The notes under the pieces: model-generated
Seen by the model: only the letters and a program-made list of their open reading frames with translations
What the model was told of the DNA's origin: nothing
Databases searched by the model: none
Assembly: GCA_035506535.1 (NCBI GenBank)
Contig: DATJPE010000077.1
Location: 1-32,587 of the forward strand
Reading direction: 5' to 3'
Origin: Actinomycetes bacterium
GTDB lineage: Bacteria > Actinomycetota > Actinomycetes > DATJPE01
DNA length: 32,587 nucleotides
Shown here: one piece after another, positions 1 to 4,382 of the stretch
How positions within the stretch are numbered: the first letter of the stretch is position 1
How the letters are laid out: each line of letters starts with the position of its first letter
Made by a program: the position numbers and the translations under genes

Positions 1-315
1 CTCCAGCCAGGCGAGGTGCTCGGCCCAGGCCTCGTCCTCCACAGCGGCCCGCTCGGCGTCCAGGACCGCCCGGTGCTCCGCCCAGGCCTCCGCCTCGACC
101 GCGGCGCGCTCGGCGTCCAGCCACGCGCGGTGGTCGGCCCATGCCGGCCCTTCGCAGGCTGCGCGTCGTGCCAGCAGCCAGCCGGTGTGCTGCGCCCACG
201 CGGTGGCCTCCACCGACGCCCGTTCGGCGTCCAACCACGCGCGGTGATCGGTCCAGGCGGGCTCTTCCGCGGCCCTTCGCTGCTCGGCCAACCAGGTGCG
301 GTGCTCATCCCACGC
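1..315 (-). repeat. 57-bp (19-residue) in-frame tandem repeat array, at least 6 units
   Basis: On the minus strand a Trp codon recurs exactly every 57 nt (310, 253, 196, 139, 82 and 25, lower coordinate of each codon). Each unit follows the pattern W-x-x-H-x-x-W-L-x-x-x-R-A-x-x-E-x-x-A. The nucleotide copies have diverged but the length is fixed. The array continues past the window edge, so the copy number is unknown. The composition suggests a continuous helix or coiled coil. Confidence 0.9.
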
Positions 316-1674
316 GACGACCTCGGCGGCGGCGCGCTCGGCCGCTGAGGCGGCGCGCCGCTTGGCCTCCTCCTCGGCCCTGCGTGCCGTGGCCGCGCGC
401 TCGAGGTCGGCCAGGCGGGCCTCCTCGACGGCCATGGCGACCAGCTCCGCCTCCCGGCGGCGCCGGTCGAGCTCGGCGGCCTTGCGCCGCCGTTCCTCCT
501 CCTGGGCCGAGGCCTTGAGCGCCGCGGTCTCCGCGACGGCGCGAGCCGCATCGGCCTGGGCCTCCTCGCGCTCGGCGCGCAGCCGGGCGACCTCACGGGC
601 CAGCCCACCCTCCGTCGCGCGCGGCTTCGCCGCCTCGTCCTCGGCCAGCGGCTCACCCTCGGCCAGCGGCTCACCCTCGGCGGGGTCGGCGCTCGCGACG
701 TCCTCCGCGGCGTCGGGGGCGGGCTCGTCGCCGGCTGGCTCCGTGGTCGACGCGTCCGCCACCTCGTCCAGGTCGAGCTTCTTGATCAGACTGCTGACGA
801 TGGCCACGGAACGAGCGACCGCGTCGTCGGCCGGGTCGTCCGTGAAGTCCTGGACGAGGAACCCCTCGTCGAACCCGTCGATGTCGCCCGCGTCGGTGTC
901 GCGGTGGCCGGTGTCGCTGTGGTCGGTGTCGCTGTCGTCGGTGTGGCTGTCATCGGCGGAGCTGTCATCGACGTCCATGTCGACGAGTCCGGCCCGCACC
1001 AGGGCCGAGATGACATGCCCGGCCTCGAACACCGTGAACCCGCAGTCGGCGGCGAGGTCCGCGACGGATCGTTCACCGTCGACCTTGCACAGCATCGCCC
1101 ACTCGCCGGGACCGAGCACGACGTCACCGTCGGCGTCCCCACCCGTGGCCAGCATGGGGATGGCGTCGGGGCCGCCGATCTCGCCGGTCAGTCGTCGCCA
1201 CTCGTTCATCCGCGCCCGCAGCCGCTGGAGGAGCTCGGGTACGGCCTGCGGCGGCGCGACGTCCTGCCGGGTCTTCTTGCCCTTGCGGAAGCGCCAGCTC
1301 GTGATGTTCCACTGCAGGAGGTCGACGAGCATGTCGGCCAGCTGCTCGCTGACGAACGACTCGACGACCACGCGGTCGACGTAGCCGAGGTGTACGAGCA
1401 GCTCCCCGAGCCGCCAGCCCTGCAGCTCGGAACGCTGGATCTCCAAGGCCTCGGCCAGCGACTCCGGCGCGAGCTCGCCGGAGGAGGTCAGCCGGGAGCC
1501 GAGCAGGGGACGTCGCCCGGGGACGAAGACGGAGTACACGAGGCCGTCACGGAGGTAGATCTCCGCCTCGTCGTCCTCCCCGCCGGCGACGTACAGACAG
1601 CCCGTCGCATCCTGCGCCCCGAGGTCCAGCAAGACCTGCTCGACCGGGCTGGTGAGGAGGTCGCCGTCGAGCAT
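1..1674 (-). CDS. DUF4388 (PATAN-like) domain protein with C-terminal repeats, partial
   Basis: Reading frame enters from the left edge, so the C-terminus is missing; 558 codons are visible. ATG at 1674 is preceded by a strong GGGAGGAGG Shine-Dalgarno (1684-1692) at 9 nt spacing. Residues about 1-220 look like DUF4388: MLDGDLLTSPVEQVLLDL, then an Asp/Glu-rich strand region, GRRPLLGSRL, and a helical half with WNITSWRFRKGKKTRQD. Next comes an Asp/Ser/Thr/His-rich linker (around SHTDDSDTDHSDTGHRD), an acidic Pro/Ala/Glu linker with a duplicated LAEGEP, and a long Ala/Arg/Glu-rich helix ending in 19-residue repeats. DUF4388 proteins are poorly characterised; PatA-N-like domains occur in signalling proteins linked to motility and small GTPases. 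A cytoplasmic scaffold or signalling role is inference. No membrane segment is seen. Confidence 0.85.
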   Translation of the reverse strand, partial: MLDGDLLTSPVEQVLLDLGAQDATGCLYVAGGEDDEAEIYLRDGLVYSVFVPGRRPLLGSRLTSSGELAPESLAEALEIQRSELQGWRLGELLVHLGYVDRVVVESFVSEQLADMLVDLLQWNITSWRFRKGKKTRQDVAPPQAVPELLQRLRARMNEWRRLTGEIGGPDAIPMLATGGDADGDVVLGPGEWAMLCKVDGERSVADLAADCGFTVFEAGHVISALVRAGLVDMDVDDSSADDSHTDDSDTDHSDTGHRDTDAGDIDGFDEGFLVQDFTDDPADDAVARSVAIVSSLIKKLDLDEVADASTTEPAGDEPAPDAAEDVASADPAEGEPLAEGEPLAEDEAAKPRATEGGLAREVARLRAEREEAQADAARAVAETAALKASAQEEERRRKAAELDRRRREAELVAMAVEEARLADLERAATARRAEEEAKRRAASAAERAAAEVVAWDEHRTWLAEQRRAAEEPAWTDHRAWLDAERASVEATAWAQHTGWLLARRAACEGPAWADHRAWLDAERAAVEAEAWAEHRAVLDAERAAVEDEAWAEHLAWLE

Positions 1675-1790
1675 GCCCGTAGGCCTCCTCCCCTGGTCGC
1701 GTGGATTCCCTTCACCATCGGCAGGTCCCCCCGGGGTGTTGAGCGTCGGGAGCCGCCCGACTACGCCTCGGCAGACCCCGAGAACGGGCG

Positions 1791-1854
1791 GTCACCGCCT
1801 GTCACAACGGGTCACGGAGTCGGTGACACCCGGTGACCGTGGGCGATTCGTGAC
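1791..1854. promoter_or_regulatory. Phased GTCAC/GTGAC array, BldD-box-like
   Basis: GTCAC occurs at 1791, 1801 and 1811 (exact 10-bp phase) and GTGAC at 1823, 1833 and 1850. The 1801/1833 and 1811/1823 pairs share one symmetry centre at 1819. Three stretches (1792-1804, 1802-1814, 1824-1836) fit TNAC-N5-GTNA, the conserved part of the Streptomyces BldD box. The array lies 12-75 nt upstream of the BKACE gene and in the divergent promoter of the DUF4388 gene. Which regulator binds is inference. Confidence 0.55.
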
Positions 1855-1865
1855 ACCATGACGCC

Positions 1866-2732
1866 ATGGCTGCTCCCGCCACGCTCATCACCGTCGCGCC
1901 GACCGGTGCCGAGACCGCGAAGAGCGACGCCCCCACGCTGCCGGTGACCCTCGAGGAGCTGCTGGAGCAGGCCGAGGCGTGCGAGGCGGCCGGCGCTGCC
2001 ATGGTGCACGTCCACATCCGCGACGCCGACGCCAACCCGACCCTCGACCTGGGCCGGTTGCGCGAGACCGTGGTGGCGCTGCGCGAGCGGACCGGCCTGA
2101 TCGTGCAGCTGTCGACCGGCGGCAGCGTGCACGACCCCTACGACGCCCGGCTGCGGGTGCTCGACGCCGAGCCAGACTCCTGCTCGCTGACCTGCGGCAC
2201 GGTCAACTTCGGCGACGACGTCTTCCTCAACCCCTGGCCGTTCATGGTCGAGCTCTACCGAGCGACCCAGGAGCGCGAGATCGTGCCCGAGTTCGAGCTC
2301 TTCGACCTCGGGCACGTCGCCGCGCTCCAGCGCCTGCTGGACCAGGAGGGGTCTCCGTACGGCGGCCACGTGCACTGCGATCTCGTCATGGGCGTTCCCG
2401 GAGGCATGCCGGGAACCGCGCAGGCCCTGGTCTCGGCCGTTGCCGGGCTGCCGCCGGGCTGCTCCTTCTCCGCGACGGGGATCGGCCGTACGTCGCTCAC
2501 CGTGGCGCTCGCCTCGCTCGCGGCCGGCGGGCACCTGCGGGTCGGGATGGAGGACACCCTGACGTTTCGCCGCGGCGAGCCCGTACGCGACAACGCGCAG
2601 CTCGTCGAGCGGGCCGCGACCCTCGCGACGCTGGTGCAGCGGCCGCCCATGCCGCTCGAGGCGGCCCGTGCCCTGCTGGGCGTGAAGGACCGGGCCGCGG
2701 TGGTCGGTGCTGGACGGGGGACGCCGACATGA
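1866..2732 (+). CDS. BKACE family beta-keto acid cleavage enzyme (DUF849, Kce-like)
   Basis: 288 aa, the usual length of the 3-keto-5-aminohexanoate cleavage (BKACE) family. These Zn-dependent TIM-barrel enzymes condense a beta-keto acid with acetyl-CoA and cleave it to acetoacetate plus a CoA ester. The HVHIRD motif gives H48 and H50, and GMEDT gives E229; these match the His-x-His plus Glu metal ligands described for Kce. E16 lies in the N-terminal GAETAKSD segment, and the GHVHCDLVMG and GIGRTSL strands are barrel elements. The actual substrate cannot be read from the sequence; family members act on many beta-keto acids, so lysine fermentation should not be assumed. First gene of a coupled plus-strand run; the stop TGA lies within an ATGA overlap with the next micro-ORF. 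ATG at 1866 has no clear Shine-Dalgarno. Confidence 0.88.
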   Translation: MAAPATLITVAPTGAETAKSDAPTLPVTLEELLEQAEACEAAGAAMVHVHIRDADANPTLDLGRLRETVVALRERTGLIVQLSTGGSVHDPYDARLRVLDAEPDSCSLTCGTVNFGDDVFLNPWPFMVELYRATQEREIVPEFELFDLGHVAALQRLLDQEGSPYGGHVHCDLVMGVPGGMPGTAQALVSAVAGLPPGCSFSATGIGRTSLTVALASLAAGGHLRVGMEDTLTFRRGEPVRDNAQLVERAATLATLVQRPPMPLEAARALLGVKDRAAVVGAGRGTPT

Positions 2733-2764: not shown

Positions 2765-2860
2765 ATGAGCGTGGTGCAGGAGCTGGCCGGAGGGCAGTCG
2801 AGGAGAAGGCAGGGTCACCGGGATGACAGGAGTGGCGGCGTGACGGGGGTGGCCGAGTGA
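2729..2860 (+). CDS. Hypothetical 43-aa micro-ORF between BKACE gene and rsiG
   Basis: The ATG at 2729 overlaps the BKACE stop (ATGA, 2729-2732), and its TGA at 2858-2860 overlaps the rsiG GTG (GTGA, 2857-2860). It therefore fills the 124-nt gap exactly and is positioned for translational coupling at both ends. The product is basic and Gly/Arg-rich, starts MTGKRGMTGKQGMSV, and has no recognisable domain or membrane segment. Its first 36 nt are two 18-bp tandem units (2729-2746 and 2747-2764, 15/18 identical). It may be a true microprotein or mainly a reading frame that carries ribosomes from the BKACE gene to rsiG. Alternative in-frame ATGs are at 2747 and 2765. Confidence 0.45.
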   Translation: MTGKRGMTGKQGMSVVQELAGGQSRRRQGHRDDRSGGVTGVAE

Positions 2861-3429
2861 GCGAGCCGCTGCTGTCGCCGCGTCCGGACGGACGCCGGCG
2901 CATCGATCGGGTGCTCGCCGAGGACTACCTCGACGGCCTGTCCGGGCGCTCGCTGGAGGACGTTCGTGTCCTGCGCCACGAGGCCGAGCAGGAAGAGGCC
3001 GACCTCTCCTACCTGCGCCGGCTCCTCCAGGGGCGTAGCGACCTGCTCCGAGCGGAGCTCGACCGTCGCGCGGGCTCCGCCGACGAGCCCCTCGTCGACC
3101 GGCTCGTCGACGTCTTGAGCGACGGGCCGCGGACCACCCACGGCAGCGGGCGGCACATCACCGTCGAGCCGTCCCGGGTCGCCGAGCACCGCCGCCGGGT
3201 CGAGCAGCTGGTCGCCGACATCGGGCTCTCCGACGTCGCGGGGCGCTCACCGGAGGAGCTGTCGCGCACCCTCGCGGTGCTCGAGGACTACGAGCGGGCG
3301 ATCAGCGAGCTTCGCCAGCGGGTTCAGGCGGTCATGGACGCCTGTACGTCCGAGATCGCCCGTCGCTATCGCGACGGTGAGGCGGACGTGTCCAGCCTGC
3401 TGGCCGTCGAGGCCAACCCCGAGGCGTGA
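2857..3429 (+). CDS. rsiG: RsiG-family anti-sigma factor (c-di-GMP-responsive, AmfC-like)
   Basis: 190 aa, GTG start. It resembles the actinobacterial 'aerial mycelium formation protein' family, whose characterised member RsiG sequesters the sigma factor WhiG when loaded with c-di-GMP. The diagnostic motif E(x)3S(x)2R(x)3Q(x)3D is present twice: E47-S51-R54-Q58-D62 in the first long helix and E146-S150-R153-Q157-D161 in the second. These are the two helices of the antiparallel coiled coil that binds a c-di-GMP dimer in Streptomyces RsiG. The link between them (residues about 88-105) is short and polar. The protein is predicted to be cytoplasmic. The start overlaps the micro-ORF stop (GTGA), and the stop overlaps the asparaginase start (GTGA). 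The BldD-like array upstream of the operon would be a second c-di-GMP input. The partner sigma gene is not in the window, and whether it controls sporulation or flagella here is unknown. Confidence 0.88.
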   Translation: MSEPLLSPRPDGRRRIDRVLAEDYLDGLSGRSLEDVRVLRHEAEQEEADLSYLRRLLQGRSDLLRAELDRRAGSADEPLVDRLVDVLSDGPRTTHGSGRHITVEPSRVAEHRRRVEQLVADIGLSDVAGRSPEELSRTLAVLEDYERAISELRQRVQAVMDACTSEIARRYRDGEADVSSLLAVEANPEA

Positions 3430-4382
3430 GCCTGAGCCGGCCGCTCGTCGAGGTCGTGCGCTCCGGGTTCGCCGAGAGCGTGCACCGCGGCTCGCTGGTC
3501 GCACTGAACGCCGCTGGGGCGGTCGCCCTGCGAGTCGGGGATCCCGACCGGGTGATCCTTCCCCGCTCGACGAACAAGCCGCTGCAGGCGGCCGGGATGC
3601 TCGAGGCCGGCCTGGCGCTCGAGGGGGAGCTTCTGGCCCTCGCGGCTGCCTCGCACTCAGGGGAGCCTCATCACCTCGCCGGCGTGGAGCGGATCCTGCT
3701 GGCTGCCGCGCTTCCGGCGTCCGCGTTGGGCTGCCCTCCAGATTTGCCGGCCGATCCGACGGAGCGGGAGCGGTGGCTGCGGGCCGGGCGGGCGCCCGAG
3801 CCGTTGGCGATGAACTGCTCGGGCAAGCACGCTGCGATGCTCGCCACCTGTGTGGTGCGCGGATGGCCGCCGGCGACGTACCGGGACCCTGAGCACCCGC
3901 TGCAGATGTTCCTGCGTGCCCGCGTGGAGGAGCTGGCGGGTGAGCGGGTCGGTGTGCTCGCCGTGGACGGGTGCGGCGCCCCGGTCTTCGGCCTCAGCCT
4001 GACCGGGCTGGCTCGCGCCATCCAGGCGCTGGTGACCGGGGAGGACACGTCCGGGCGGGCCGTCGCGGACGCCATGCGGGCCCATCCGGACTACGTCGGC
4101 GGGACGGGCCGCGACGTGACCCGCCTCATGCGTGGGGTACCCGGCCTGCTGGCGAAGGACGGTGCCGAGGGGGTGTACGTCGCCGCCGCGGCGGACGGCA
4201 CGACGGTCGCGGTGAAGGTCGAGGACGGCTCCTCCCGCGCAGCCGTACCGGCCCTGGTTGCGGCGCTGCACGCCCTGGGGATGAGCGCTCCCGTGCTCGA
4301 CGAGCTCGCCGAGTCACCGGTCCTCGGCGGCGGTCGACCGGTCGGCGTCGTCCGCGCGATCCCGGGCCTGTTCGGTCCGTAG
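3426..4382 (+). CDS. L-asparaginase II family protein (Asparaginase_II, Rhizobium-type)
   Basis: 318 aa, in the family range. Members hydrolyse asparagine to aspartate and ammonia and are unrelated to E. coli AnsA/AnsB. Conserved motifs: HRGSLVAL near the N-terminus, LPRSTNKPLQA (the family S/T-x-K-P-x-Q block), AAASHSGEPHH, and NCSGKHAAMLATC, which carries the catalytic-region Ser, Lys and Cys. Also DGCGAPVFG, and TGRDVTRLM followed by LLAKDGAEGVY. No signal peptide, so cytoplasmic. The GTG start overlaps the rsiG stop by 4 nt, implying translational coupling. The stop TAG doubles as the first bases of the -10 hexamer of the next gene. Confidence 0.88.
   Translation: MSLSRPLVEVVRSGFAESVHRGSLVALNAAGAVALRVGDPDRVILPRSTNKPLQAAGMLEAGLALEGELLALAAASHSGEPHHLAGVERILLAAALPASALGCPPDLPADPTERERWLRAGRAPEPLAMNCSGKHAAMLATCVVRGWPPATYRDPEHPLQMFLRARVEELAGERVGVLAVDGCGAPVFGLSLTGLARAIQALVTGEDTSGRAVADAMRAHPDYVGGTGRDVTRLMRGVPGLLAKDGAEGVYVAAAADGTTVAVKVEDGSSRAAVPALVAALHALGMSAPVLDELAESPVLGGGRPVGVVRAIPGLFGP

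Follow-up and report, generated by a model that had tools for sequence, protein, structure and literature searches.

A dense GTSAC half-site array as a putative lineage-specific operator of the kce-rsiG promoter, beside a conserved WhiG-type promoter, in an Actinomycetes genome

The window analyzed here is one whole contig (C77, 32,587 nucleotides) of a 3.35 Mb draft genome from an Actinomycetes bacterium. A gene for a DUF4388 protein and kce, which encodes a beta-keto acid cleavage enzyme, are divergent and separated by an intergenic gap of 191 bp. The kce gene is followed by rsiG and by asnII, whose start overlaps the rsiG stop and which is kept as a neighbor in relatives. The features of the locus are as follows:

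1..1674, minus strand: gene for a DUF4388 protein (PF14332), start codon at 1674, cut short by the contig end
1716..1743, minus strand: CTCAACACCCCGGGGGGACCTGCCGATG, promoter of sigma28/WhiG type for the divergent DUF4388 gene, present in 33/47 orthologous gaps
1789..1805, plus strand: left arm of the predicted operator, CGGTCACCGCCTGTCAC, with half-sites 1791 and 1801 and core box A (BldD-like, 1792-1804); pairs in inverted orientation with 1823-1839 at 15/17 positions
1811..1815, plus strand: extra half-site GTCAC, 10 bp after 1801, giving the overlapping core box B (1802-1814)
1823..1839, minus strand: right arm of the predicted operator, CGGTCACCGGGTGTCAC in the minus-strand reading, with half-sites 1823 and 1833 and core box C (1824-1836)
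1850..1859, plus strand: extended -10 element TGA-CACCAT (itself at 1851-1859), including a sixth "half-site" GTGAC; recurs in orthologs
1866..2732, plus strand: kce, BKACE-family beta-keto acid cleavage enzyme (PF05853, E=3e-87)
2857..3429, plus strand: rsiG, twin-motif c-di-GMP-dependent anti-sigma factor (PF22802, E=1e-26)
3426..4382, plus strand: asnII, asparaginase II-family gene and third gene of the operon (PF06089, E=7e-108)

RsiG is an anti-sigma factor that elsewhere sequesters the sigma factor WhiG at high c-di-GMP. To our knowledge, nearly all studies of the RsiG-WhiG pair have been carried out in Streptomyces and Rubrobacter. A sequence-only reading of this DNA had named kce and rsiG at the locus, and both names are confirmed by the BKACE-family match, by PF22802, and by the E(X)3S(X)2R(X)3Q(X)3D motif of RsiG, which is present twice (EADLSYLRRLLQGRSD and ERAISELRQRVQAVMD). 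The genome resembles the studied systems in carrying a twin-motif RsiG together with whiG, which is found as two fragments at contig ends of C35 and C57; bldD and mtrA are also present. The split of whiG across the C35 end and the C57 start (L136/L137) is probably an assembly break, not a broken gene. Unlike the studied systems, rsiG here is divergent from the DUF4388 gene, which carries an MshEN-like segment.

That segment comprises residues 55-111 of the DUF4388 protein, which have profile matches to the N-domains of MshE, PilB, and PilF in PDB (E 2e-10 to 1e-3). Against NF053729, the NCBI model of the MshE-type c-di-GMP motif, this copy scores 33.3 of 38 bits and is below the cutoff, and six of nine orthologs score above it. 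The AlphaFold model of the N-terminus is fair (pLDDT 83). A Foldseek search with it against PDB gave no significant match (best E 0.3; PilB N-domain probability 0.75), so the MshEN assignment rests on sequence profiles. From these profiles, the protein is likely a c-di-GMP effector with an MshEN-type (c-di-GMP-binding-like) segment. DUF4388 is not mentioned together with c-di-GMP in the literature searched. The MshEN-like segment is the third c-di-GMP-related element at this locus.

Within the gap, GTCAC occurs at 1791, 1801, and 1811 in exact 10-bp steps, and GTGAC occurs at 1823, 1833, and 1850 (start-to-start steps of 10, 10, 12, 10, and 17). The 13-mers at 1792, 1802, and 1824 fit TNAC-N5-GTNA. 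The sequence-only reading had reported six GTSAC half-sites in 64 bp, three of them in exact 10-bp phase, and three such 13-mers, and all of these are found at the positions it gave. It had also described a symmetry about 1819; a dyad does exist there, but a better one is centered at 1814. The latter is the strongest symmetry of the array: 1789-1805 and 1823-1839 are the arms of a 17-bp inverted repeat and agree at 15/17 positions. The arm centers are about three helical turns apart, and half-site 1811 sits between the two arms. The agreement between arms covers the flanks and part of the spacer, as expected of a recognized site. Counted from the kce ATG, the right arm spans about -43 to -27 and overlies the -35 region. 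On its other side, about 48 bp separate the array from the -35 of the divergent WhiG-type promoter.

The letters of the sixth half-site (1850), which had been counted into the array, are indeed there, but they are better read as part of a -10 promoter element. The kce ATG is 6 nt downstream of the extended -10, the hexamer of which (CACCAT) is weak. Of 47 divergent loci, 19 have the pattern GTG[AG]CA[CG][CG]AT ahead of kce or rsiG, including 13 of the 26 in which kce comes first, and only in this one of the 19 is it accompanied by the array. Half-site 1850 was reinterpreted because the same element is found in relatives that lack the array, which leaves a predicted operator proper of five half-sites over about -75 to -27 of the kce-rsiG-asnII promoter. 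This promoter is probably leaderless, with a start placed from spacing only. Given the presumed start sites, the palindrome would be outside the transcripts of both promoters. Similar elements precede mtrA starts in several genomes, and they also precede unrelated leaderless-looking genes.

The array is non-random, and it is far beyond what shuffling produces. Among 20,000 versions of the 191-bp gap made by dinucleotide shuffling, none had six half-sites in 64 bp, one had five, and none had three TNAC-N5-GTNA boxes (0/20,000). Outside the array, the densest 64-bp stretch of the window has three half-sites. Genome-wide motif counts, obtained by pattern searches and from retrieved stretches of sequence, indicate that the array is unique within the 3.35 Mb genome. 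GTSAC-N5-GTSAC occurs 14 times, and three of these occurrences are in the array; TNAC-N5-GTNAC-N5-GTNAC occurs in the array only, and a looser triple with 4-8 bp spacers is found in only three other places. An origin by chance, or as a non-functional remnant of a local inverted duplication, would be in keeping with the absence of the array from all relatives tested. We consider such an origin very improbable against the shuffle statistics, the genome-wide uniqueness, and the precise placement of the array, upstream of the -35 region and across it.

Comparison with relatives is useful for separating conserved from recent promoter features. The comparison set consisted of 47 divergent loci including this one; the other 46 are all from other families, and the nearest genomes belong to the same class only. 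The relatives that could be named at 54 further loci are mostly uncultured Frankiales-like and Sporichthyaceae-like bins. Conservation of the array upstream of kce and rsiG, a check proposed in the sequence-only reading, failed, because the array was found in none of the 46 orthologous gaps (other families, same class at nearest). It is therefore not an ancient part of the promoter, and it appears to be lineage-specific as far as class-level comparison can tell; its absence at this distance is compatible with selection on it within its own lineage. Relatives without the array retain both the WhiG-type promoter and the -10 element, and the array is therefore an addition to a conserved core.

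Flagellar/WhiG (sigma28) promoters have the -35 sequence TAAA and the -10 sequence GCCGATAA. Upstream of the DUF4388 gene, the minus strand from 1743 to 1716 reads CTCAAC-N15-TGCCGATG. The promoter letters within it, TCAA-N16-GCCGATGG, resemble a flagellar/WhiG promoter with three mismatches to TAAA/GCCGATAA; these mismatches in the conserved TCAA-N16-GCCGATG of the DUF4388 gene are a further difference from the known RsiG-WhiG switch. The pattern [GC]CTCAA-N16-[GT][CT]CGA is present in 33 of 47 divergent gaps, compared to 0.015 expected from mononucleotide shuffles. All 33 loci share identical CTCAA and CGA blocks, both of which the search pattern itself partly fixes. In a relative (G010) in which another gene separates DUF4388 and kce, the promoter is kept upstream of DUF4388. 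Across 25 genomes, CTCAA-N16-GCCGATG has 72 matches, compared to three for the reversed pattern. The conserved feature of the gap is the WhiG-type promoter, and it is a more durable observation than the array; it did not figure in the sequence-only reading. From its letters we infer WhiG as the sigma factor for the DUF4388 promoter, which would tie the rsiG neighborhood to the very sigma factor that RsiG inhibits.

Elsewhere in this genome, CTCAA-N16-GCCGATG is just upstream of a GGDEF-EAL gene (L126, G000:C5:25479), a GGDEF gene (L130, G000:C34:8420), a camelysin-like gene (L134, G000:C74:25752), and a DUF2510 gene (L129, G000:C33:62658). It is possible that these four genes form a WhiG regulon. 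In Rubrobacter, WhiG promoters also precede diguanylate cyclase/phosphodiesterase genes (PMC8325347), and flagellar-type promoters before c-di-GMP genes are thus shared with the RsiG-WhiG switch of that genus.

Taken as a whole, the array is probably an operator for a transcription factor at the kce-rsiG-asnII promoter, specific to this lineage, and we put the probability of this reading at about 0.62. Its position at -75 to -27 of kce fits control of kce-rsiG. A dimeric, probably cooperative regulator would bind the two inverted 17-bp sites. At the right arm it would lie over the -35 region and so most likely repress kce-rsiG, and activation through the left arm is an alternative direction of control. 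Because RsiG elsewhere sequesters WhiG at high c-di-GMP, such an operator would set the amount of anti-sigma factor made. At the opposite end of the gap, the WhiG/sigma28-type promoter would drive DUF4388, a likely output of the sigma factor of RsiG. The gap would in this way join the supply of an anti-sigma factor to a likely output of its sigma factor.

In Streptomyces, the full BldD consensus is nTnACnC(A/T)GnGTnAn (PMC7374567). The sequence-only reading had proposed that the array is bound by BldD, and a search of the genome did find a bldD ortholog (G000:C76:49454-49942) with the c-di-GMP motifs RGD and RQDD. Its product (PF21179) has 78% identity to the S. coelicolor protein, and the DNA-binding domain is near-identical (61/71). 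As in Streptomyces BldD-(c-di-GMP) systems, bldD has a canonical box in its own promoter; this box, TCACTGACCGTGA, is excellent, and the promoter has four GTSAC half-sites in a stretch of about 50 bp. It is also one of the six intergenic GTSAC-N5-GTSAC sites of the genome. If BldD-(c-di-GMP) repressed kce-rsiG, the same messenger would shut off RsiG synthesis and activate the RsiG already made. The three array boxes have the 13-bp pseudo-palindromic geometry TNAC-N5-GTNA of the Streptomyces BldD box, but boxes A and B overlap, and the C.G spacer with its central A/T is not matched: the central A/T is found in none of the three, compared to 21 of 25 boxes from bldD promoters. A BldD weight matrix was built from 25 core-matching boxes in the bldD promoters of relatives, boxes that are presumed to be BldD sites, with this genome excluded. 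By this matrix the array boxes score 10.2, 8.0, and 10.6, no better than random core matches (median 11.5), and the bldD box of this genome scores 17.25. The 46 orthologous gaps show no enrichment of BldD boxes (median p 0.56 against shuffles, one locus below 0.05), and relatives do not conserve the array at this promoter. In the portions of the literature that the search reached, rsiG is not named as a BldD target. Thus, of the BldD proposal, the presence of bldD and the loose core geometry stand, and the full consensus, the score, and conservation in orthologs do not. BldD would be the best single named candidate for the binder, tentatively and at well under even odds.

Several other regulators read similar letters. 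MtrA sites are GTnACC-n5-GTnAC and GTCACAgcg repeats with an 11-bp period (PMC13189361, PMC4285127), and the GlnR site is GTnAC-n6-GTnAC, also with an 11-bp period (PMC10704036). An OmpR-family response regulator of the MtrA or GlnR type, probably acting as an activator from head-to-tail repeats, would account for the GTnAC half-site letters and for the three half-sites in direct repeat, and mtrA is in the genome. However, the array repeats every 10 bp and contains no 11-bp pair, two of its half-sites are inverted, and the inverted 17-mer pair would be left unexplained. The Streptomyces-type mtrA promoter of this genome itself shows GTCAC-n6-GTGAC. The spacing rules out MtrA or GlnR as a good fit, and we consider this type of binder unlikely. 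BldC operators are AATTNNNN(C) direct repeats every 9 bp that contain AATT (PMC5859096); the array shares head-to-tail repeats at about one-turn spacing, but it is G+C-rich, lacks AATT, and has 10-bp steps, which rules out BldC. The BldM site, TCACcCgnncGgGTGA, is a 16-bp palindrome (PMC4125116), and BldM is ruled out as well, because the array, with TCAC-N7-GTGA, falls short by one base and has no CCG core. Since the MtrA/GlnR, BldC, and BldM motifs do not fit, the likeliest single class of binder, at somewhat less than an even chance, would be a lineage-specific regulator outside the named families that reads the 17-mer CGGTCACCGSSTGTCAC as a dimer. Agreement of the 17-mers in the flanks and part of the spacer suggests one longer site, not loose half-sites; none of the known motifs tested fits, and the class has other, unrelated GTSAC arrays in 10-bp phase. 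Against such a regulator, no regulator gene is adjacent, and the 14 GTSAC-N5-GTSAC sites of the genome include no second GTCACCGNNTGTCAC, which leaves no regulon to outline.

A larger scheme would make the 191-bp gap a multi-level c-di-GMP hub. In it, BldD-(c-di-GMP) would set the supply of RsiG, RsiG-(c-di-GMP) would restrain WhiG, and WhiG would drive the MshEN-type effector here and diguanylate cyclases elsewhere, closing a feedback loop. We regard this scheme as improbable. For the reading that we prefer, a lineage-specific operator, a dense putative operator on the rsiG promoter offers a concrete place to study the transcription of rsiG, of which no account was found in the literature searched. 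The WhiG-type promoter of the DUF4388/MshEN gene adjoining rsiG is also found in about 30 other genomes. This conserved promoter predicts a target of the RsiG-WhiG switch in many uncultured actinomycetes, and through it roles of WhiG outside spores and pili become testable.

Other sites with related letters were observed in this and other genomes. In this genome, two BldD-like core boxes 21 bp apart (L138:4173-4206, G000:C23) are 240 bp upstream of a sugar transferase gene of bacterial, exopolysaccharide type, and one of these boxes equals array box A except for a single base. A good BldD box, TCACTCCCCGTGA (L147:2033-2045, G000:C3), is 153 bp upstream of a WhiB-family gene. Genome G266 (family f4, genus g73) has 25 matches to an array of three GTSAC half-sites, far above other genomes, and these look like a repeated operator or element. 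In the genomes of family f20 (L214, L216-L220), four GTSAC half-sites in 10-bp phase form a conserved array. It lies downstream of a gene for a NarL-type regulator and upstream of one for a conserved membrane microprotein of 44 residues.
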